A stretch of 64,000 bases of DNA from the NCBI GenBank assembly GCA_023381695.1, contig JAMCQP010000039.1:66151-130150 (forward strand), read 5' to 3'. This document shows positions 53,925 through 64,000 of the stretch, piece by piece; position 1 is the stretch's first letter; each line of letters starts with the position of its first letter. The position numbers and the translations under genes are program-made. This DNA is from Bacillota bacterium (lineage in GTDB: Bacteria; Bacillota; UBA5301; JAMCQP01). The notes beneath the pieces are model-generated. The model was not told the DNA's origin. It worked only from the letters and a program-made list of their open reading frames with translations, and did no database searches.

Positions 53925-54746
53925 CTACCTGACCTTGATTACCGCCAGGACCGCGGCCAATACCACTCCTCCCAGCAAAAGCCGGTTGGTGGACTTTAAA
54001 TTCTCCATCTCCTGATCCGTATTGCGCCTGTAACTGGTCATCTCCGACTGGAGTTCAGCCACCCGGTCTTCCAGCCCTTTTTGCCGGAGCATGTTGACGG
54101 TCTGCTGCGCCGCCAGCACATCTCCAATCTGGTTTTCCAGAGAAGCAACCCGGTTGCTGGTGGCCTTGACCTCCGCCTCCAAGCGGTCCAATCGCTGCCG
54201 GAGATCGCCCTGGTCGGCCTTGAGACCGTCAACCTTGGCCATGTCCTGGCGCAAGGCGTATGTTTCCCCCGTTACCCGGGTCAGATCCTCGCGCAGCACC
54301 ACCAGATTCCGGTTGGCCTTGCCCAGATCCGCGGCCAGGGCGTCGGTTTGCCCGGCCAAAGAGACCAACTCCTCGCGAAACTCCGTGGAGAGCTTCCGCA
54401 AGAGCTTCATGTCCTCGTCGCTCAACGTTACCTGCCCCGCCTGGACATCGTTCAGCAGCTTGGCGATCACCGTCGCCAGGGTAAACCGATCCACGGCCTT
54501 TGTCCCCTGAAAAGTCCCATCCTGGTAGAGGCCCAGATAACCCTTTTCCACCAGAGTGACTACCGCCTTGTAGGCCCAGTGATCCGACGGCACATCCTGA
54601 ACCTGCACCGGCGCAGCCTGTGCCAGAACCGGGGTCGTCCCCGCCAAACCCATCAAAACCGCCGCCAGTGCCAAACCCAGGGAAAGCACGCGTAGATATC
54701 TCCCCCGCAACAGTAATCTCTCCCTCTGATTCAAAAAATAGTGCAT
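53925..54746 (-). CDS. Single-SLH, coiled-coil, membrane-anchored envelope protein (copy 1)
   Basis: 273 aa: signal peptide ending V-L-A-Q-A (about 44), one SLH domain (V-P-S-D-H-W-A-Y-K-A-V, about 50-105), a coiled coil of about 120 residues with heptads (L-R-Q-R-L-D-R-L-E-A-E-V), and a C-terminal hydrophobic helix (L-L-L-G-G-V-V-L-A-A-V-L-A-V-I). SLH would hold the wall polymer and the helix the membrane, the coiled coil bridging them. ATG 54746 behind GAGGAGGG is chosen; GTG 54797, five nucleotides after AGGAGG, is possible. A paralog is at 59152. Confidence 0.85.
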   Translation of the reverse strand: MHYFLNQRERLLLRGRYLRVLSLGLALAAVLMGLAGTTPVLAQAAPVQVQDVPSDHWAYKAVVTLVEKGYLGLYQDGTFQGTKAVDRFTLATVIAKLLNDVQAGQVTLSDEDMKLLRKLSTEFREELVSLAGQTDALAADLGKANRNLVVLREDLTRVTGETYALRQDMAKVDGLKADQGDLRQRLDRLEAEVKATSNRVASLENQIGDVLAAQQTVNMLRQKGLEDRVAELQSEMTSYRRNTDQEMENLKSTNRLLLGGVVLAAVLAVIKVR

Positions 54747-54786
54747 TAACCCTTCCCTCCTCTGGCCGCTCCCGTCCTTCCCTGGA

Positions 54787-54817
54787 CTCCGCGGCACCTT
54801 GACCTCCTGTCAAATGC
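54787..54817. repeat. Leader repeat, copy 1 (upstream of SLH gene 1)
   Basis: 31 nt shared, with 3 differences, with 60126-60156. On the minus strand it contains TTGAC-AGGAG-GTCAA, a hairpin whose loop holds a Shine-Dalgarno sequence. Confidence 0.75.
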
Positions 54818-54831
54818 AAAGACCCGGTCGC

Positions 54832-56937
54832 TTATTTGATCACCAATTCCCCATCCGTCACCGCTATCGCAGGAAGCAGAGCCTCCCCCGGCCCGGTAAT
54901 CTTGACGTCCTTGAGCACCAGCGCGGATTTTCCCGCCGCCCTGGCCCGGAAATGAACACTCATCACAACCTCCTGATCCACATCAAAAGGCGCGGTACGG
55001 CGGCCCACCGCCCCGGATACCGTCCCTTTCTGGTTGTCCCAGCGGGGCATCTGCCAGAAAGCCAGTTCCTCGTTTTCCACAAAGAGGCTTCCCCGGGAGA
55101 CGCCAATCACCTCGAGGACCGCCGGATCAAACTTCATTCCGAGTTCAACCCCGGCAACGCCATCCAGATTGGTGGCCAGCACATTTACCGTCACCAGTTC
55201 GCCAGGCGCCACCGCGGGTTTATCCGGCGCCACGGCAATGCGTGGTTTAAACGCCGGGATCTCCAGGGCGCCCTTTGCGCTAACCGCCTGAAAGTTGGAA
55301 CCCTCCGCTTTAACCACAAAAGCCGGGACGCCCTTCGGCCGGGTCGATCTAGCTGTGCCGGCGCCCTGTTCATTTGGCTGGCGGCTTTTTGCGGAAAACC
55401 GCCAGAGCACCTCCACGCTGCCGCCGGGCTCCAGAGTCCCCAGAAAGCGTTCCGCTTTGTCCAGTTCGGCCAGACTCAGGCCGGTTGACGGTTCCACGGT
55501 TGCTTCAAGCAGATAGGCAGGCGCTCCGCCCGTGTTCGTGAAGGTGGCCAAAAAGCCGGGAGCGGCGGGTGCAGCAGCGGGTGCAGCAGCTGTAGCAGGC
55601 GCATCCTTTTCGGGGGCCGGCCCGGCCAGTTTGATGGAGATCCTGGGCGGGGCGACCACCCGCACGGTTCGCTCCACATTATTGAGCTCCACATTGGCGG
55701 CCTCCACCTGAACCTGGTAACGCAGAAGGCCGGTGACTTCCCCCGTGGCGACCACCCGCCACGTGATCTGGGAAGAGTTATGCCCGGCCAGATTGCCGAC
55801 AACCCGGCGGGATTGCTGCCCGGAAGCCAGCGTCAATCCCTTGGGGAGGCTGATCGCGGCGACCACGTTTCTGGCCTCAACTTCATCGGTGTTTTCAATG
55901 TAGACCACCACCGGCAGGTAACTTTTTTTGCCGGCGCCCGCATCGGCGTAGACCTCGCCCGGAGAGCTTACCCCCACGGAGAGCGCCCCGGGAGCGATGG
56001 TGATCCCTCCCAGGCCGTACCAGGTCACATAGACCCGCTTTTCGCCGGGCGGCAAGGGAATAGGGTCCCAGTAAAGCGCCACGGCGCTGTCCAGTTCAAA
56101 CTCTCCCTGGCGCAAAAAATCCCGTCCCGGGCGAAAATCAAAGTCCCAGGGCCCGTCGGCCAGTGCCCCCCAGTTGCTCACATAAACCTTGTCCGGTCGG
56201 GTAACGCCCGGCCCCTGCAAGGTTCCCTGAGCCACCACCTTTGGGTCGCTCAGGCTGTCAAAAGCCTGCCAGAACTCCGGCATCCTACTGGCCTGGATTA
56301 CTGTATCCTCCACCAGAGCCCGCTCGCCAAAGCGAAAGGGCGCCCCGTCATTTCCACCCAGCATGGTGTCGAGCATGATGCGCAACCCCACCAGGTGGGG
56401 TTTCTTGTCCGTGTTCTGGACCGTGTACATGATCTGGGCTGTATCCGATAACCCGGTGGTGCTGCTCTTTACAATACTCAGGTCCTGCGCCACCTCTAAA
56501 GGCCCCAAAAGCCAGGCGCTGTCCATTGCTGAGCCGCCGGTGATCTCCGGCAAACGAAGCGCCGGGCCATAGACCCCTTCCCGGCCGGCCCGTTTTTGGG
56601 TCGGGCCGCCGTAGACGTAATCTTTTCCGTCCACACGCACGGTAGTATACGAGGTCCAGGGTTGCGGCCGCCCATAAATCAGAGGGAGGTTTTCGTCCCC
56701 GGTGCGGTTTGGATCGCCCCCCGTGGTATCCACGGCAAAGCGTCCGGTATCGTGAACGCCTGCATTCACCGAAATGGCGATATAATCGTTGTGAACCGAG
56801 AGCACCCTTGGCCCGCCGGCGGCTTCGCCAACCTCACCCGCCACTGGTTTGTCCGCCGGTTGGGACCCAGCCGGTGTTGCCATTGCCAAAAGCCCGAATA
56901 CGCAAAGACTGATGATCTTCGTTCCTGCTTTTTGCAC
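54832..56937 (-). CDS. Secreted protein with C-terminal cohesin-like domain
   Basis: 701 aa. Signal peptide (I-I-S-L-C-V-F-G-L-L-A-M-A). The first half (about 40-330) is a beta-rich region with no family I know; residues 330-560 contain Ig-like/CARDB-type strands split by an Ala/Pro linker; residues about 575-701 resemble a cohesin (V-A-P-D-K-P-A-V-A-P-G-E-L-V-T-V-N-V, G-V-A-G-V-E-L-G-M-K-F-D-P-A-V-L-E-V). GTG 56937, eight nucleotides after GGAGGG, gives a normal signal peptide; ATG 56991 does not. Between tonB and an SLH gene. Confidence 0.82.
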   Translation of the reverse strand: MQKAGTKIISLCVFGLLAMATPAGSQPADKPVAGEVGEAAGGPRVLSVHNDYIAISVNAGVHDTGRFAVDTTGGDPNRTGDENLPLIYGRPQPWTSYTTVRVDGKDYVYGGPTQKRAGREGVYGPALRLPEITGGSAMDSAWLLGPLEVAQDLSIVKSSTTGLSDTAQIMYTVQNTDKKPHLVGLRIMLDTMLGGNDGAPFRFGERALVEDTVIQASRMPEFWQAFDSLSDPKVVAQGTLQGPGVTRPDKVYVSNWGALADGPWDFDFRPGRDFLRQGEFELDSAVALYWDPIPLPPGEKRVYVTWYGLGGITIAPGALSVGVSSPGEVYADAGAGKKSYLPVVVYIENTDEVEARNVVAAISLPKGLTLASGQQSRRVVGNLAGHNSSQITWRVVATGEVTGLLRYQVQVEAANVELNNVERTVRVVAPPRISIKLAGPAPEKDAPATAAAPAAAPAAPGFLATFTNTGGAPAYLLEATVEPSTGLSLAELDKAERFLGTLEPGGSVEVLWRFSAKSRQPNEQGAGTARSTRPKGVPAFVVKAEGSNFQAVSAKGALEIPAFKPRIAVAPDKPAVAPGELVTVNVLATNLDGVAGVELGMKFDPAVLEVIGVSRGSLFVENEELAFWQMPRWDNQKGTVSGAVGRRTAPFDVDQEVVMSVHFRARAAGKSALVLKDVKITGPGEALLPAIAVTDGELVIK

Positions 56938-57002
56938 AAAAGCCACCCTCCACGTCCACCTCGTATCGAAATCAGTCCTCTTGATCCTCATGAGAATTGC
57001 CC

Positions 57003-57890
57003 TTATTCGTAATTGCTCGCGGAAACTACGCCGCCCTCTTCGAAAGCGATCTTCAAGAAGAAGATGTAGTTTTTGGCCGCCGGCCGGAAAGACTGGCCCG
57101 CCACCGTCTTAACCGCCTGGGTGTCCAGGCGCGCGTCCCCGGAGGACTTCTCCACGGTTACTTTTTCCGTGGCGCCGCCGGTTGTGACAAAAACCTTCAA
57201 GATCACCGTGCCGGTAACCCCTTCGTTCTGGGCATTCTTGGGGTAAACAATCGCCTTTCCCAGAGCCAGCAACTCCTGCCCGCCGAGCACCCCAAAACCG
57301 CCTTTGCCGGTCCCGGAACCATCCCCGGAGCCGGCGCCCATCCCCGGACCGGCGCCGGCTCCCGGACCTGATCCGGATCCCAGGCCTTTGCCTCCCGGCT
57401 GGCCGGCCATCCCCTTGCTTTCCTCCGCCCCTTTGGAATCCGGCGGCTGGCTGCCCGCCGCTGCTTCTTGCCCCTGGGATTCCTTTTCAACCGGTTTTTT
57501 CGCGGGCTTTTTCGTGGGTTTTTCCCCCGGTTTTTTCGCGGGTTTTTCAGCCAGCTTTTCGAGCCCCCTGGCGCTGGTGATCACCTCTGATCTCGTACCC
57601 GCCTGTTTCTTCTCCAGTTTCTTCTCCACCCGCGCCTTCTCCGCCGGCTTGGCGGAAGCGGTCATCGCCTTGGCGGCATGGGAGATCTTTCCCGTCGTCT
57701 CTCCCGCGGTTTCCGCCATCATATCGATGACCCCGCCCTCGATCATATAAAGCCCACCCGGATGGCCGGGACCCCAGAAAGGCGCCACGGACAAAAAAAG
57801 GAGATGGATTGCCACAGAAACAAGCAGCGCCAACCAAAAGGCGTGCTCTTTCCGGCTGACATTAATCTCCTGCTCAAAACCGATTTTCAC
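57003..57890 (-). CDS. tonB: TonB-family energy transducer
   Basis: 295 aa: N-terminal transmembrane helix with the S25-V-A-I-H29 (SxxxH) motif that contacts ExbB/D, a Lys/Pro/Glu-rich rod (K-K-P-x-E-K-P repeats, about 115-140), a Gly-rich stretch (170-205), and the TonB C-terminal domain (about 215-295, I-V-Y-P-K-N-A-Q-N-E-G-V-T-G-T-V). It starts at GTG behind GGAGG. TonB normally powers outer-membrane receptors, which makes it notable in a spore-forming Bacillota genome. Confidence 0.9.
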   Translation of the reverse strand: MKIGFEQEINVSRKEHAFWLALLVSVAIHLLFLSVAPFWGPGHPGGLYMIEGGVIDMMAETAGETTGKISHAAKAMTASAKPAEKARVEKKLEKKQAGTRSEVITSARGLEKLAEKPAKKPGEKPTKKPAKKPVEKESQGQEAAAGSQPPDSKGAEESKGMAGQPGGKGLGSGSGPGAGAGPGMGAGSGDGSGTGKGGFGVLGGQELLALGKAIVYPKNAQNEGVTGTVILKVFVTTGGATEKVTVEKSSGDARLDTQAVKTVAGQSFRPAAKNYIFFLKIAFEEGGVVSASNYE

Positions 57891-57916
57891 CGGCCATTCC
57901 TCCTGCCAGGGAGCCT

Positions 57917-58324
57917 TTAGGGAGCCTTGCGGTCCACCGCCAGGGCGATACGGTAGCCGCCGGCTTGACGCACCGCGTCCATCGCCGCCACCAGATGCTT
58001 GTAAAGGACCGCCTCATCCGCCTCAATGACCACCACGGCATCGCCGTTACTTCCCAGCGCCCTGTGGAGTTCGGCCTTCAACCGCTGCTCGTCCACCTGC
58101 TGGCGCCCGAGGTAAAAGGCGCCGTCTCGCGCCACGGTGACCACCACCTTGCTCTGTTCCTGGGCGGTTACGGTCACCGCCCTGGGAAGATTGATATTCA
58201 GGCCAGTAACATTGGTCTTGAAGGTGCTGAAGAGCATGAAGAAGACCAGCAAAAAGAAGAGGACATCAATCATCGGAATGATCTCCAGGCGCATCTTCTT
58301 TCGCTTTGCCCGTTCAATATTCAT
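57917..58324 (-). CDS. exbD: ExbD/TolR-type biopolymer transport protein
   Basis: 135 aa: single N-terminal helix with the proton-carrying aspartate D20 in I-I-P-M-I-D-V-L-F-F-L, then the periplasmic ExbD/TolR domain. Overlaps exbB by 4 nt and precedes tonB by 26 nt. Confidence 0.93.
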   Translation of the reverse strand: MNIERAKRKKMRLEIIPMIDVLFFLLVFFMLFSTFKTNVTGLNINLPRAVTVTAQEQSKVVVTVARDGAFYLGRQQVDEQRLKAELHRALGSNGDAVVVIEADEAVLYKHLVAAMDAVRQAGGYRIALAVDRKAP

Positions 58325-58956
58325 CGGACCTCACTCCGTCTTGCCACCGTCTCTTTTTTAACCGCCATGCTCAAGATCTGGGTCGCCGCGCGGTTCAGCT
58401 CCAGGATCCGCCGATCCACCAGGCTTGACAGATAGGCGTAAAAGGCCATGGCGGGAATGGCGATGATCAGGCCCATCGCCGTGGTCAGCAAAGCCTCGGC
58501 GATACCGGAACTCAGCACGCTGGGGGTGGCCAGCCCCTGCAAGGCGGCCAGCACATTGAAGCTTCTGATGATCCCGGTGACCGTACCCAGAAGGCCCAAA
58601 AGCGGGGCGATAGTGACGATCGCATCCAGGACCGGCAGCCGCCGTTCCAGCTTGTATACTTCTTGCCTGGCCGCATCTTCGAGGGCGGTTTCGACAACCT
58701 TTTCATCCTTGCCGTACTGGCTCAGGCCGGCCATGACCAGGGCCGCCACCGGCCCCCGGGAACGTTTGGCAATCTGCATGGCCTCCAGCACCCGATCCTG
58801 CAACAGGGCCGTCTTCACATCCGCCAGAAGATCATCCACGTCGATGCGCGACCGCAATAGATAGTACCACCGCTCCAGGCTTATCGCCAGCGCAAAAACC
58901 GAGCATAAGAGGAGGGGGTACATCACCGGCCCGCCTTTGGTAAAAAGATCAAACAC
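58321..58956 (-). CDS. exbB: ExbB/TolQ/MotA-type proton channel protein
   Basis: 211 aa with three transmembrane helices (about 8-28, 108-130, 150-175) and the family segment A-P-L-L-G-L-L-G-T-V-T-G-I-I-R-S-F. Forms the pentameric channel round ExbD. GTG start nine nucleotides after AGGAGG. First gene of exbB-exbD-tonB. Confidence 0.93.
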   Translation of the reverse strand: MFDLFTKGGPVMYPLLLCSVFALAISLERWYYLLRSRIDVDDLLADVKTALLQDRVLEAMQIAKRSRGPVAALVMAGLSQYGKDEKVVETALEDAARQEVYKLERRLPVLDAIVTIAPLLGLLGTVTGIIRSFNVLAALQGLATPSVLSSGIAEALLTTAMGLIIAIPAMAFYAYLSSLVDRRILELNRAATQILSMAVKKETVARRSEVR

Positions 58957-59082
58957 CGCAAAATACCTCCTGCCATGGAAGAGCTTCCTAAGGCTATAAG
59001 GCTATCTTCGACAGAATACCGGCATATCCTGCAACAGAATAGGACGTATTCCTGGAAGAAAGAGGGATTTACCGGAGCCAAG

Positions 59083-59111
59083 AAAAAAGGCACAGCGTTA
59101 CCCACTGCGCC
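59083..59111 (-). terminator. Terminator of SLH gene 2
   Basis: Stem GGCGCAG (minus, 59111-59105) / CTGTGCC (59095-59089) with one G-U pair, followed by TTTTTTC. Confidence 0.7.
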
Positions 59112-59151
59112 CTTCGATCTGTCTTTGCACTGTTCACCATATGCTCGCTTG

Positions 59152-59844
59152 CTACTTTACGGCCGCCAACACTCCGATCAACGCGCCAATAATGTACACC
59201 CAGGTCATCTGCTTGTTTTGTTTCTCCACCTGAGCCTTCAGGACGCGGACATCGTTCTCCAGGCCGTCGATATTTCCGCCGCCGGATCCTTGTGGACGGG
59301 CCTTCAGGGCTTCAATATCCGCGTTCGCCTGCTGCATCTGCTGTTTGAGGGAAGAGATATCGGTTTTCATCCCGTCCACATCCGTCCGGAGGCCGGAAAC
59401 CGAATCCTCCAGCGTCTTCAGGCGCTGGCCAATGGCCGCCATCTCCTGCGGGGAAACGTCGGATTGGCCCTGACCCTCTCCCAGTTTTGATTCCAGTACC
59501 CCCAGCCGGTCGCCGATCGCCCGCAATTCACCTTGAAATTCCTGCCGCAACTGATCCAGGCTGGCTTTCTGGTCCTGGCTGAGCTGTCCGGCGGGGAAGG
59601 TCCCCAGGTAGCGGGCGATGACCATCGCCGCCTCATAACGGGTAATCGGTTTATCTCCGCCGAAAGTCTTATCAGGGTAGCCAATCATCAAGCCGGCTTT
59701 AAGAAGTTTGTTTACCGCATCATACGCCCAATGCCCGGGAGGTACGTCCGGGAACGATGCGGGAGCTTCAGCAGCAGCCAGGGCTGGAACAGCCATCGCC
59801 AAAACAAGCAACACCGCAAGCAAACCAGATCTGAGTCTCATCAT
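59152..59844 (-). CDS. Single-SLH, coiled-coil, membrane-anchored envelope protein (copy 2)
   Basis: 230 aa with the same layout as the protein at 53925: signal peptide ending A-L-A-A-A (about 24), SLH domain (F-P-D-V-P-P-G-H-W-A-Y-D-A-V, about 30-80), coiled coil (85-205) interrupted by a Gly-rich break, and a C-terminal helix (W-V-Y-I-I-G-A-L-I-G-V-L-A-A-V). GGAGG lies 4 nt before the ATG. Own terminator. The two copies enclose the exbB-exbD-tonB-cohesin run. Confidence 0.87.
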   Translation of the reverse strand: MMRLRSGLLAVLLVLAMAVPALAAAEAPASFPDVPPGHWAYDAVNKLLKAGLMIGYPDKTFGGDKPITRYEAAMVIARYLGTFPAGQLSQDQKASLDQLRQEFQGELRAIGDRLGVLESKLGEGQGQSDVSPQEMAAIGQRLKTLEDSVSGLRTDVDGMKTDISSLKQQMQQANADIEALKARPQGSGGGNIDGLENDVRVLKAQVEKQNKQMTWVYIIGALIGVLAAVK

Positions 59845-60309: not shown

Positions 60310-61050
60310 TTAGATAACCAGTCCTCCGTCTACCCCCAGAACCGCTCCGTTGATGAAGCTGCTCTCGTCCGAAGCCAGGAAAAGATAAGCAAAGGCTACA
60401 TCCCGAGGGGCGCCGAGCCTTCCCAGGGGAGTCCTCTCCTTCATCATCTCCAGCACCTTTTCCGGCACTTTAGCCGTCATGTCGCTGAGAATAAATCCCG
60501 GCGCGACCGCGTTGGCCCGTATGCCCTTCTTGCCCAGTTCCTTGGCCCAGCTTTTGGTCATGCCGATCACCCCCGCTTTGGAGGCGGCGTAATTAGTTTG
60601 GCCCAGATTGCCGTAAACGCCGACCACCGAGGAGGCCGAAATAATGCTCCCACTCCCCTGTTGCATCATGATGGGGACAACCGCCTGGGTGCAATTAAAC
60701 ACACCCGTCAGGTTAATATTAATCACTGTATTCCATGAAGCTTCATCCATCCTGGTCAAAAAGCCATCCCGCGTCACGCCTGAATTGTTCAGCAGAACGT
60801 CAACCCGCCCGAATCTCTGAACGGCGCTCTGCGCCATCGCCTGAACCTCCGCCCGGTTGGAAACATCCACCCGGCAGAAGATCGCTTCCCTTCCGAGCCG
60901 GATAACCTCCGCGACGGTCGTCTCTCCGGCGGCGGCGTCAACGTCCGCAATCACCAGATTTGCACCCTCCCGGGCAAAAAGGAGCGCCGTTTCCCGCCCG
61001 ATCCCCTTGCCGCCCCCGGTAATCAAAGCCACTTTACCCGCTAACCGCAT
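60310..61050 (-). CDS. Short-chain dehydrogenase, FabG/3-hydroxyacyl type
   Basis: 246 aa SDR: G-G-G-K-G-I-G nucleotide loop (12-18), N-N-S-G, S140-region serine (S-A-S-S-V-V-G) and Y-A-A-S-K catalytic pair (about 153-157). Sequence is FabG/PhaB-like, reducing or oxidising the 3-position of acyl-ACP or acyl-CoA. Last gene of the acyl-CoA mutase run, so it may act on the mutase product rather than in fatty-acid synthesis. Confidence 0.88.
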   Translation of the reverse strand: MRLAGKVALITGGGKGIGRETALLFAREGANLVIADVDAAAGETTVAEVIRLGREAIFCRVDVSNRAEVQAMAQSAVQRFGRVDVLLNNSGVTRDGFLTRMDEASWNTVININLTGVFNCTQAVVPIMMQQGSGSIISASSVVGVYGNLGQTNYAASKAGVIGMTKSWAKELGKKGIRANAVAPGFILSDMTAKVPEKVLEMMKERTPLGRLGAPRDVAFAYLFLASDESSFINGAVLGVDGGLVI

Positions 61051-61102
61051 ACCCTTTCACCGCCTTGAATTATCTTGCAAAACGCTCGCCGAACGGCCGC
61101 AA

Positions 61103-61510
61103 CTAACTGGCCGCGGAAGCCTTTTTCAAATTGGCATGGATAAAATCCACAATCTCCTGAATCTGGGTTTCCGGCCCGAACACCTCGGCGATTCCCGCCT
61201 TTTTGAGCGCCGGCATGTCGTCTCTGGGAATCACGCCGCCCATCAAGACCAAAACGTCGCCCATCCCCTTCTCCCTTAACAGGCGGACGACCTTTGGGCC
61301 GAGCACGGCATGATTCCCACCCAGAGTACTCAACCCCACCACATCCGCGTCTTCCTGGATGGCGGCATTGATAATCTCCTCCGGAAACTGGTTGCCCAGG
61401 TAAACAACCTCCATCCCCGCATCCCGCAGCATCCGGGATACCGCCACCGCGCCCCTCCAGTGGATATCCAGCCCCAACTTGGCCATCAGGACCTTGATCT
61501 TTCTGCTCAT
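61103..61510 (-). CDS. B12-binding subunit of acyl-CoA mutase
   Basis: 135 aa Rossmann-like cobalamin domain with D15-I-H17-W-R-G (D-x-H-x-x-G, His is the lower Co ligand), G-L-S-T-L and L-M-G-G. It is a separate chain, as in archaeal-type and 2-hydroxyisobutyryl-CoA mutases. ATG 61510, nine nucleotides after AAAGGAG, is preferred to the upstream ATGs. It follows the large subunit by 41 nt. Confidence 0.92.
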   Translation of the reverse strand: MSRKIKVLMAKLGLDIHWRGAVAVSRMLRDAGMEVVYLGNQFPEEIINAAIQEDADVVGLSTLGGNHAVLGPKVVRLLREKGMGDVLVLMGGVIPRDDMPALKKAGIAEVFGPETQIQEIVDFIHANLKKASAAS

Positions 61511-61551
61511 CCGCCGCATCTCCTTTCGAAGTTCAATTAAACAAAATTGTT

Positions 61552-63147
61552 TTAGGCTAAGGGAAACTGCCACAAACCGAACTCCTCGCGAAAGACCTTT
61601 TCAATTTCCCCCAGGGTCGCGTTGGCCCTTACCGCCTCCATCACATGGGGCATGATATTCTCGTTGGTCTTACACCCGGTTCTCAGCGAAATCATGGCTT
61701 CCGCCAGCCTCTTGCCGTCGCGCCGTTCTCTCAACGCCCGTAATTTGGCTTTCTGGCGCTCCTCCGTATCCGGGTAACGAAATACTTCAATTTCCCCCGA
61801 GTGGGCGTGATCGGCCTTCAGGTAGTTAACGCCAACGATCTTTCTTTCCCCGCTTTCAATCGCCTTTTGCTGCTGGTAGGCGTAGTTGGAGATCTCCCGG
61901 TGCAGCCAGCCGCTTTCCACGCAGGCCACCAGGCCGCCCCGTTTCTCGATCTCCGCCACGTAATCCCGGATTCTCCGCGCCATCTCCATGGTCAGGTACT
62001 CCACAAAGTACGAGCCGGCCAGGGGATCGACGGTATTGACCACATTGGTTTCCACCTGCAAGATTTGCTGGGTTCGCAGCGAGATCAGAGCCGCCTGCTC
62101 GGTCGGAGCGGAATAGGCCTCGTCATATGAATCAATGTGCAGGGACTGGGCGCCGCCAAAAATCGCGGCCAGCCCCTGGATCGCCGAGCGGGCGACATTG
62201 TTGAAGGGCTCGACGGCGGTCAAGGTGATCCCGGCGGTCTGAACATGGAAACGCATATGGCAGGAACGTTCGTCCTGGGCATGGAAGCGTTCCTTCATCA
62301 CTTCATGAAAAACCTTGCGGGAAGCCCGGCATTTGGCGATCTCCTCAAAGAAATCGTTGCAGAGATCCCAGAAGAAAGACATGCGGCGAGCAAAAGAATC
62401 CACGGGCAATCCCCTGCGAATCAACTCTTCCGCCGTGGCGATGGCGTTGGCGATGGCGACCGCCACCTCTTGAACCGCATTTGTCCCTGCCTCACGCAGG
62501 TTATAGCCGTTGTAGCTGACCGGGTTCCACCTTGGCAGATTCTTGGTGGCAAACTCAATGGCATCGCACTGCAGCCGGAAGGACGCCTGCGGGGGCAAGA
62601 TCTCCGGACCGCTCCCCACGGTAGTTTCCATGATGAAATCGTTCTGGTTTGTCCCCGAGAGTTTATCGAATGAAATCCCGCGGTTTTCGGCCATGACCAT
62701 GTACATGGCCATGAGAACAACCGTAGTGCTCGGCAGGTGCGTGACCACCGACGCGGAAACCTGATCAATGGGCACGTCCTGGAAGAGGCGCTCCATGTCT
62801 TCCAGGGAGTCGATGGCCACGCCGCAGGCGCCGACGTTGCCTTCCGCTTCGGGGGAATCCGAATCATATCCTCGCACGGTCGGCAGATCGAAAACAATGT
62901 TTACTCCCGTGGCGCCGTGACGCAGCAAAAATTTGATCCGTTCATTGCAATCCTCGGGGGCGCCGAATCCCGCCAACTGCCGGACGGTAAACAGGCGGCC
63001 GCGATACATGTTTGGGTACACCCCGCGGACAAACGGCGGTTTTCCGGGAAACCCGATCTCCTTTTCGTAGTCGTACCCGGCGATATCCTCGGGGGCATAG
63101 AGAAGTTTGACGGGAATTCCGGATTCCGTGTAATACTCATCAGTCAT
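61552..63147 (-). CDS. Acyl-CoA mutase large subunit, atypical active site
   Basis: 531 aa TIM-barrel catalytic subunit of the methylmalonyl-CoA mutase family. Core motifs are present (V-F-D-L-P-T-V-R-G-Y-D-S-D, G-V-A-I-D-S, R-F-H-V-Q-T-A-G, G-G-A-Q-S-L-H). The residues that define methylmalonyl-CoA mutase are not: the Tyr of R-Q-Y-A-G is L58, the Arg of V-R-N-T is lost (V-G-S-G, 177-180), and the His of G-Y-H is N216. The frame is open to 63345 but ATG 63147, eight nucleotides after AAGGAGG, is the start. Substrate unknown. Confidence 0.9.
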   Translation of the reverse strand: MTDEYYTESGIPVKLLYAPEDIAGYDYEKEIGFPGKPPFVRGVYPNMYRGRLFTVRQLAGFGAPEDCNERIKFLLRHGATGVNIVFDLPTVRGYDSDSPEAEGNVGACGVAIDSLEDMERLFQDVPIDQVSASVVTHLPSTTVVLMAMYMVMAENRGISFDKLSGTNQNDFIMETTVGSGPEILPPQASFRLQCDAIEFATKNLPRWNPVSYNGYNLREAGTNAVQEVAVAIANAIATAEELIRRGLPVDSFARRMSFFWDLCNDFFEEIAKCRASRKVFHEVMKERFHAQDERSCHMRFHVQTAGITLTAVEPFNNVARSAIQGLAAIFGGAQSLHIDSYDEAYSAPTEQAALISLRTQQILQVETNVVNTVDPLAGSYFVEYLTMEMARRIRDYVAEIEKRGGLVACVESGWLHREISNYAYQQQKAIESGERKIVGVNYLKADHAHSGEIEVFRYPDTEERQKAKLRALRERRDGKRLAEAMISLRTGCKTNENIMPHVMEAVRANATLGEIEKVFREEFGLWQFPLA

Positions 63148-63169
63148 CTCAGGGACCTCCTTTTGTCGG

Positions 63170-64000
63170 TCATGTTCTGTTCGCCAAAAAATACTCCGAG
63201 ATAAACAGCGCGGCGGTGTAAGGATCCAGGCTGCCTTCGTCAACCCGCCGGCGCATGCCCAACAGCAGTTCATCCTTCTCCAGTTCCCGTTGAAATTTTT
63301 CCAGGACATGTTCCTTGCTGTTTTCCAGTAAAATGGTGTTGGCACGGTTACGGCGCTGTGCCATCCATTGCCCCGACTGTTCCAGAAGCCGCCGGTGCTC
63401 CTGGAGCGATTCCCACAGTTCCTCCAGGCCTTCCTTGCGTAAAGCGCAGGTTTTGAGAACCCTCGGTCTCCACTTTTTTGGTTCCACCTCGCTGAGCATC
63501 ATTTCAAGATCTCTGACGGTTTCGTCGGCGCCCTCCCGTTCCGCCTTATTGACGATAAAAATATCCGCAATTTCCATGATCCCGGCTTTGAAAGTCTGGA
63601 TACCGTCACCGAGACCGGGAACCGTTACGAGGACGGTGGTGTCCGCCAGTTTCTTGATTTCATCGCCCACCTGGCCCATGCCCACGGTTTCAATCAAGAC
63701 AACATCCTTGCCGGCGGCATCCAGAAGTTGAACAACATCCTTCGCGGCGGCGGACAACCCGCCCAGACTGCCTCTACTGGCCAAACTACGGATGAACACA
63801 CCCGGTTTGGCGTCGAGGCTGGTCATGCGAATCCTGTCCCCCAGAAACGCCCCCCCGCTGAAAGGGCTTGATGGATCGACACAGACTACCCCCACCTTCA
63901 ACCCCTTTTCCGCCAACAACTCCACAAGCCCGTTGGTGATTGTACTCTTTCCCGCTCCGGGCGGCCCGGTCAACCCGACAATATAAGCCTTCCCGGTCCA
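63170..64000 (-). CDS. MeaB/ArgK-type GTPase (5' end outside window)
   Basis: G-protein chaperone that loads and protects B12 mutases. The frame runs off the right edge (W-T-G-K-A-Y-I-V-G precedes the P-loop), so about 40-50 N-terminal residues are missing. Present: G-P-P-G-A-G-K-S-T, D-P-S-S-P, E-T-V-G-M-G-Q and N-K-A-E, all typical. It ends 22 nt before the mutase start, so it heads or sits early in the operon. Confidence 0.93.
   Translation of the reverse strand, partial: WTGKAYIVGLTGPPGAGKSTITNGLVELLAEKGLKVGVVCVDPSSPFSGGAFLGDRIRMTSLDAKPGVFIRSLASRGSLGGLSAAAKDVVQLLDAAGKDVVLIETVGMGQVGDEIKKLADTTVLVTVPGLGDGIQTFKAGIMEIADIFIVNKAEREGADETVRDLEMMLSEVEPKKWRPRVLKTCALRKEGLEELWESLQEHRRLLEQSGQWMAQRRNRANTILLENSKEHVLEKFQRELEKDELLLGMRRRVDEGSLDPYTAALFISEYFLANRT

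Follow-up and report, generated by a model that had tools for sequence, protein, structure and literature searches.

The minus strand at positions 60310-64000 of the window (the whole 64,000-nucleotide stretch analysed here, from contig JAMCQP010000039.1 of a Bacillota bacterium) carries four genes, encoding a short-chain dehydrogenase/reductase (SDR), a B12-binding small subunit, the large subunit of an acyl-CoA mutase and a MeaB chaperone. Judged by its sequence, the mutase is very probably an RcmAB-type, adenosylcobalamin-dependent 2-hydroxyisobutyryl-CoA mutase, which would interconvert 2-hydroxyisobutyryl-CoA (or a similar tertiary 2-hydroxyacyl-CoA) and (R)-3-hydroxybutyryl-CoA. We regard it mostly as a known type of enzyme in a new setting, a seeming uptake-and-degradation operon, and not as new chemistry. 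The operon would let the cell use 2-hydroxyisobutyrate or a similar tertiary 2-hydroxy acid.

A preliminary description of this DNA had proposed a substrate pocket of no described type. In a maximum-likelihood tree of 72 large subunits (root not inferred, bootstrap not fully settled), the window mutase was instead found inside a characterised clade of 12 rows that also holds the Kyrpidia tusciae mutase, with support of 100/99. Both window subunits are 71% identical to RcmAB of K. tusciae DSM 2912, and it is near certain that the K. tusciae mutase used here (genome G598) is RcmA. The G598 operon reads GntR-MeaB-mutase-B12-SDR-CoA ligase, and PMC7176365 describes the same gene set for rcmAB/hcl operons and reports preferential formation of (R)-3-hydroxybutyryl-CoA by K. 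tusciae RcmAB.

Residue matches were taken from HMMER alignments to chains of solved structures. These bear out the earlier matches by eye, which had placed L58, V-G-S-G and N216 where methylmalonyl-CoA mutase (MCM) has Y89, R207 and H244, and Ile and Asp of 2-hydroxyisobutyryl-CoA mutase (HCM; I90 and D117) opposite L58 and V85. The alignments add a further change, H137, which is followed by a two-residue insertion (THLPSTT, compared with TINAPA in canonical enzymes). The window shares with K. tusciae RcmA the Val at the HCM D117 position, H137 (within THLPS) and N216, and the pocket is that of RcmA. Close relatives of ~71-83% identity have the same pocket residues, which are features conserved in the family and not a matter of chance. 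The predicted structure of the large subunit has a mean pLDDT of 87.8, with HCM (4r3u) as its best PDB match (TM 0.95).

Leu or Ile at position 58 together with Asn216 occurs in all 26 of the mutases here termed N-type, and the His is kept in the 46 sequences of MCM, isobutyryl-CoA mutase (ICM) or HcmA type. The N-type enzymes fall into groups A (that of the window), B (Cys or Ser at 137) and C (THYPS or THFPR), with N216 in all. Each group forms one clade, and strong support separates all three from the 46 canonical enzymes, HcmA among them. A search of a related class located clade A mutases in three further genomes, one of them G598. The thioester of the substrate is contacted by His244 in MCM. 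Clades A and C have a His where another barrel strand ends, and this residue could assume that role; clade B has neither His. A reciprocal His/Asn swap fails as a rule for all N-type enzymes, as clade B combines Cys or Ser137 with Asn216. The Asn found consistently at the H244 position allows the function of that His to be tested directly.

Clade B, a sister clade (L049, L062, L083, L117 and L118, with Asn216 and Cys or Ser137), occurs in mixed neighbourhoods, with beta-oxidation-type genes in L065. No characterised member of clade B was found, and this clade is the most likely place for a new substrate. A clade C large subunit also lies on a contig from a viral collection (L010:2992-4539), beside acyltransferase, aminotransferase-like, glycosyltransferase-like and MaoC-like genes, with no B12 subunit seen nearby. 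Searching the phage collection with L010 gave just two weak matches, both to different mutases. The plasmid collection gave no match above 47% identity, and HcmA-type reference sequences were obtained there.

On the whole contig (L003), the operon continues upstream of MeaB with CoA-transferase subunits B and A, an M24-family protein and the tripartite ATP-independent periplasmic (TRAP) transporter components DctM, DctQ and DctP. A sigma-54 activator with PAS domains lies upstream of DctP on the same strand. DctP through SDR is likely a single transcription unit, because neighbouring genes are separated by no more than about 55 bases or overlap. A candidate sigma-54 promoter, TGGCACAGGTTTTGCA, matches the pattern perfectly 109 bases before DctP, in the gap behind the activator gene; taken alone this is weak evidence, because the scan, with one mismatch permitted, is expected to give 2.9 matches by chance.

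The MeaB, B12 subunit and SDR genes named in the preliminary description are all present, with TIGR profiles above cut-off. Its suggestion that a branched hydroxyacyl-CoA is turned into a straight one oxidised by the SDR is likely, since the partner genes fit a 3-hydroxyacyl-CoA product: an SDR (window, L008, L066 and K. tusciae), a thiolase (L008) and a MaoC/PhaJ-like hydratase (L009 and L041). The window SDR is 59-63% identical to the mutase-adjacent SDRs of K. tusciae, L008 and L066, and PhaJ acts on (R)-3-hydroxybutyryl-CoA in a mutase assay (PMC11599936). In the proposed pathway, the TRAP transporter would import the 2-hydroxy acid, the CoA-transferase pair would convert it to the CoA ester, and the mutase, matured by MeaB, would shift the thioester group via radical chemistry. 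The SDR would then oxidise the (R)-3-hydroxyacyl-CoA to acetoacetyl-CoA, which a thiolase would cleave.

No CoA ligase is present in the window operon, its place being occupied by the CoA-transferase pair. Both subunits have glutaconate CoA-transferase (1POI) as best match, with the catalytic Glu position kept. N-type mutases of G115, G079, G084, G120, G400 and G534 (the last with a clade C mutase) have close homologues of this CoA-transferase nearby; a search of K. tusciae, G625 and G809 at E<=1e-40 gave none. We infer that the CoA ester is made in three ways ahead of one core: by CoA ligase in aerobes, from acetone by a thiamine diphosphate (TDP) lyase, and by CoA-transferase following uptake in the window organism. 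A CoA-transferase in this place within a full operon is the less ordinary point of the system, and it is uncertain that the CoA-transferase route does what is proposed. Acetone is disfavoured as the source in the window organism: no homologue of the acetone TDP lyase was found at E<=1e-60 in its genome, which is ~90% complete, and the CoA ester is therefore more likely to come from an imported acid.

Several points weigh against the assignment as an RcmAB-type mutase. K. tusciae RcmA has Ile at 58 where the anaerobe subgroup, the window included, has Leu, and this subgroup has N-I-V-F around V85 and GSGPE where K. tusciae has S-V-V-L and GSSLE. Given these differences, an acyl group somewhat different from that of K. 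tusciae RcmA is possible, and the exact acyl group is uncertain. The window mutase is also without ~30 N-terminal residues found in homologues. Its ATG comes after AAAGGAGG and its start at 63147 lies ~30 residues later than theirs; the space between MeaB and the start codon does not hold the extension, nor is it encoded in the frame upstream of 63147. The HCL ligase that accompanies RcmAB in aerobes is absent from the window operon; this is a difference of operon and not of mutase, the ligase being a usual companion outside the definition of the enzyme. Finally, no activity data for CoA-transferase-linked members were found, and the activity and (R) preference of RcmAB are taken from later papers and not from the original enzymology.

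Assignments as MCM, ICM or Aquincola-type HCM can be rejected. MCM is incompatible with the absence of Y89, R207 and H244. ICM is marked by Phe opposite Y89 and Gln opposite R207, in contrast to L58 and VGSG in the window; the tree is against both assignments. The S-type HcmAB of Aquincola has Ile90 and Asp117, compared with L58 and V85, and HcmA falls outside the N-type clades. To this extent the earlier expectation of a different acyl-CoA substrate stands. In its full form, which would make the acyl-CoA substrate of the mutase wholly new, it is highly improbable: residues unlike those of MCM, ICM and Aquincola-type HCM would favour it, but the same residues are common to the characterised RcmA clade. 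Very little weight likewise falls on a pivalyl-CoA/isovaleryl-CoA or isobutyryl-CoA/butyryl-CoA mutase, acting on a substrate without a hydroxyl. Val at the HCM D117 position points in this direction, and the D117V mutant of HCM reportedly gains pivalyl-CoA activity. However, the last gene of the operon encodes a 3-hydroxyacyl-type SDR instead of an acyl-CoA dehydrogenase, a thiolase is also present in L008, and the Phe/Gln pair of ICM occurs in another mutase of the same genome.

RcmA chemistry on a larger or different tertiary 2-hydroxyacyl-CoA, such as 2-hydroxy-2-methylbutyryl-CoA, to which L58 and N-I-V-F would be tuned, is unlikely as well, if less so than the preceding two. The first-shell differences from K. 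tusciae RcmA are common to most anaerobe members, and the mutase cluster of Desulfotomaculum arcticum is induced on butanone as well (PMC8084838), both in keeping with such a substrate. Nevertheless, RcmAB has largely the same pocket and partner genes, and acetone-type and acid-type members occur in one clade. We therefore prefer an RcmAB-type 2-hydroxyisobutyryl-CoA mutase.

Features of the mutase operon in the window, with the pocket codons of the large subunit
Feature	Positions	Strand	Basis
FabG/PhaB-like SDR, proposed (R)-3-hydroxyacyl-CoA dehydrogenase	60310..61050	-	TIGR01830 above cut-off; adh_short_C2
B12-binding small subunit, 135 aa, motif DIHWRG	61103..61510	-	TIGR00640 above cut-off; PF02310
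Mutase large subunit, RcmA type (probable), 531 aa	61552..63147	-	TIGR00641 601 bits, above cut-off
N216 codon (MCM H244)	62500..62502	-	HMMER alignment
V177-G178-S179-G180 (VGSG), MCM R207 region	62608..62619	-	Alignment; clade carries one-residue insertion
H137 codon; Asn in MCM/ICM/HCM; barrel strand end (E131-137 in model)	62737..62739	-	Alignment and model
V85 codon (HCM D117); K. tusciae RcmA also Val	62893..62895	-	HMMER alignment
L58 codon (P. shermanii MCM Y89, Phe in 5REQ Y89F chain; HCM I90)	62974..62976	-	HMMER alignment
MeaB G-protein chaperone, C-terminal 276/317 aa	63170..64000	-	TIGR00750 above cut-off

MeaB is cut by the window edge and extends 123 bases further; the complete copy (317 aa) is at L003:5321-6274. 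The M24 creatinase/prolidase-type protein upstream of it, past the window edge (L003:8126-9379), appears to have intact metal-ligand positions. An M24 gene also lies near the mutase in K. tusciae, G809, G400, G008, clade B (L065) and the acetone clusters, and the M24 protein of D. arcticum is acetone-induced (PMC8084838). At 53925-59844 the window carries TonB-, ExbD- and ExbB-like genes and two SLH-domain coiled-coil proteins, a hint of a Bacillota cell with an outer membrane. The ICM-like second mutase of the genome (L005:11043-13088, in G000:C43; Phe and Gln at the pocket positions) has its own MeaB and an adjoining acyl-CoA ligase, and in the record its two subunits run together across a short masked stretch.

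Comparison of the G343 and G497 clade C clusters gave identities of 88.757% (TDP enzyme), 84.354% (large subunit), 73.881% (small subunit) and 57.778% (dehydrogenase). The values printed for D. arcticum and D. geothermicum are 88.76, 84.35, 73.88 and 57.78% (PMC8084838). Because all four agree, the G343 and G497 mutases are the acetone-induced mutases of these two species, which have been proposed from proteomics to act on 2-hydroxyisobutyryl-CoA (PMC8084838). They have L58, H137, N216 and the same insertions as the window mutase, an M24 gene in the cluster, and a place in a sister clade in the tree. In contrast, they are 49% identical to the window enzyme, with Leu at position 85 and Asn near the R207 position; acetone is the proposed origin of their CoA ester, by way of the TDP enzyme, and no CoA-transferase adjoins. 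The clade A clusters L009 and L041 contain a MaoC-type hydratase, an HMG-CoA lyase-like protein, 2-hydroxyacyl-CoA dehydratase components or activators and M24, the same kinds of partner gene as in the acetone clusters, and in G008, the source of L041, a TDP enzyme homologue lies ~11 kb from the mutase. The D. arcticum and D. geothermicum mutases are predicted to work like RcmA.

One pocket would tie together aerobic 2-hydroxyisobutyrate use by RcmAB, acetone degradation in Desulfotomaculum and uptake operons that have no assigned substrate, and it points to additional (R)-selective mutases with which 2-hydroxyisobutyrate could be produced. As a tentative and, taken whole, rather doubtful extension, the N-type mutases (RcmA, the Desulfotomaculum acetone mutases and clade B) may represent a distinct branch of B12-dependent acyl-CoA mutases in which Asn always replaces the catalytic MCM His, a His was gained on a neighbouring barrel strand in A and C, and thioester activation is unlike that of MCM, with the window providing an unrecognised TRAP/CoA-transferase route for 2-hydroxyisobutyrate-like acids.

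Among the known systems, MCM has the same fold as the window mutase and most barrel residues in common. HcmAB (Aquincola, Methylibium) is a 2-hydroxyisobutyryl-CoA/(S)-3-hydroxybutyryl-CoA mutase that shares the fold, the two-subunit layout, MeaB in the operon and, as proposed, the same carbon rearrangement. However, Methylibium HcmA is 41% identical to the window enzyme, has Ile, Asp, Gln and His in place of L58, V85, VGSG and N216, and groups with the canonical mutases. K. tusciae RcmAB and the window mutase both have a separate B12 subunit, with MeaB, SDR and M24 genes nearby, but K. tusciae has a CoA ligase and GntR where the window has the CoA-transferase, TRAP transporter and sigma-54 activator.

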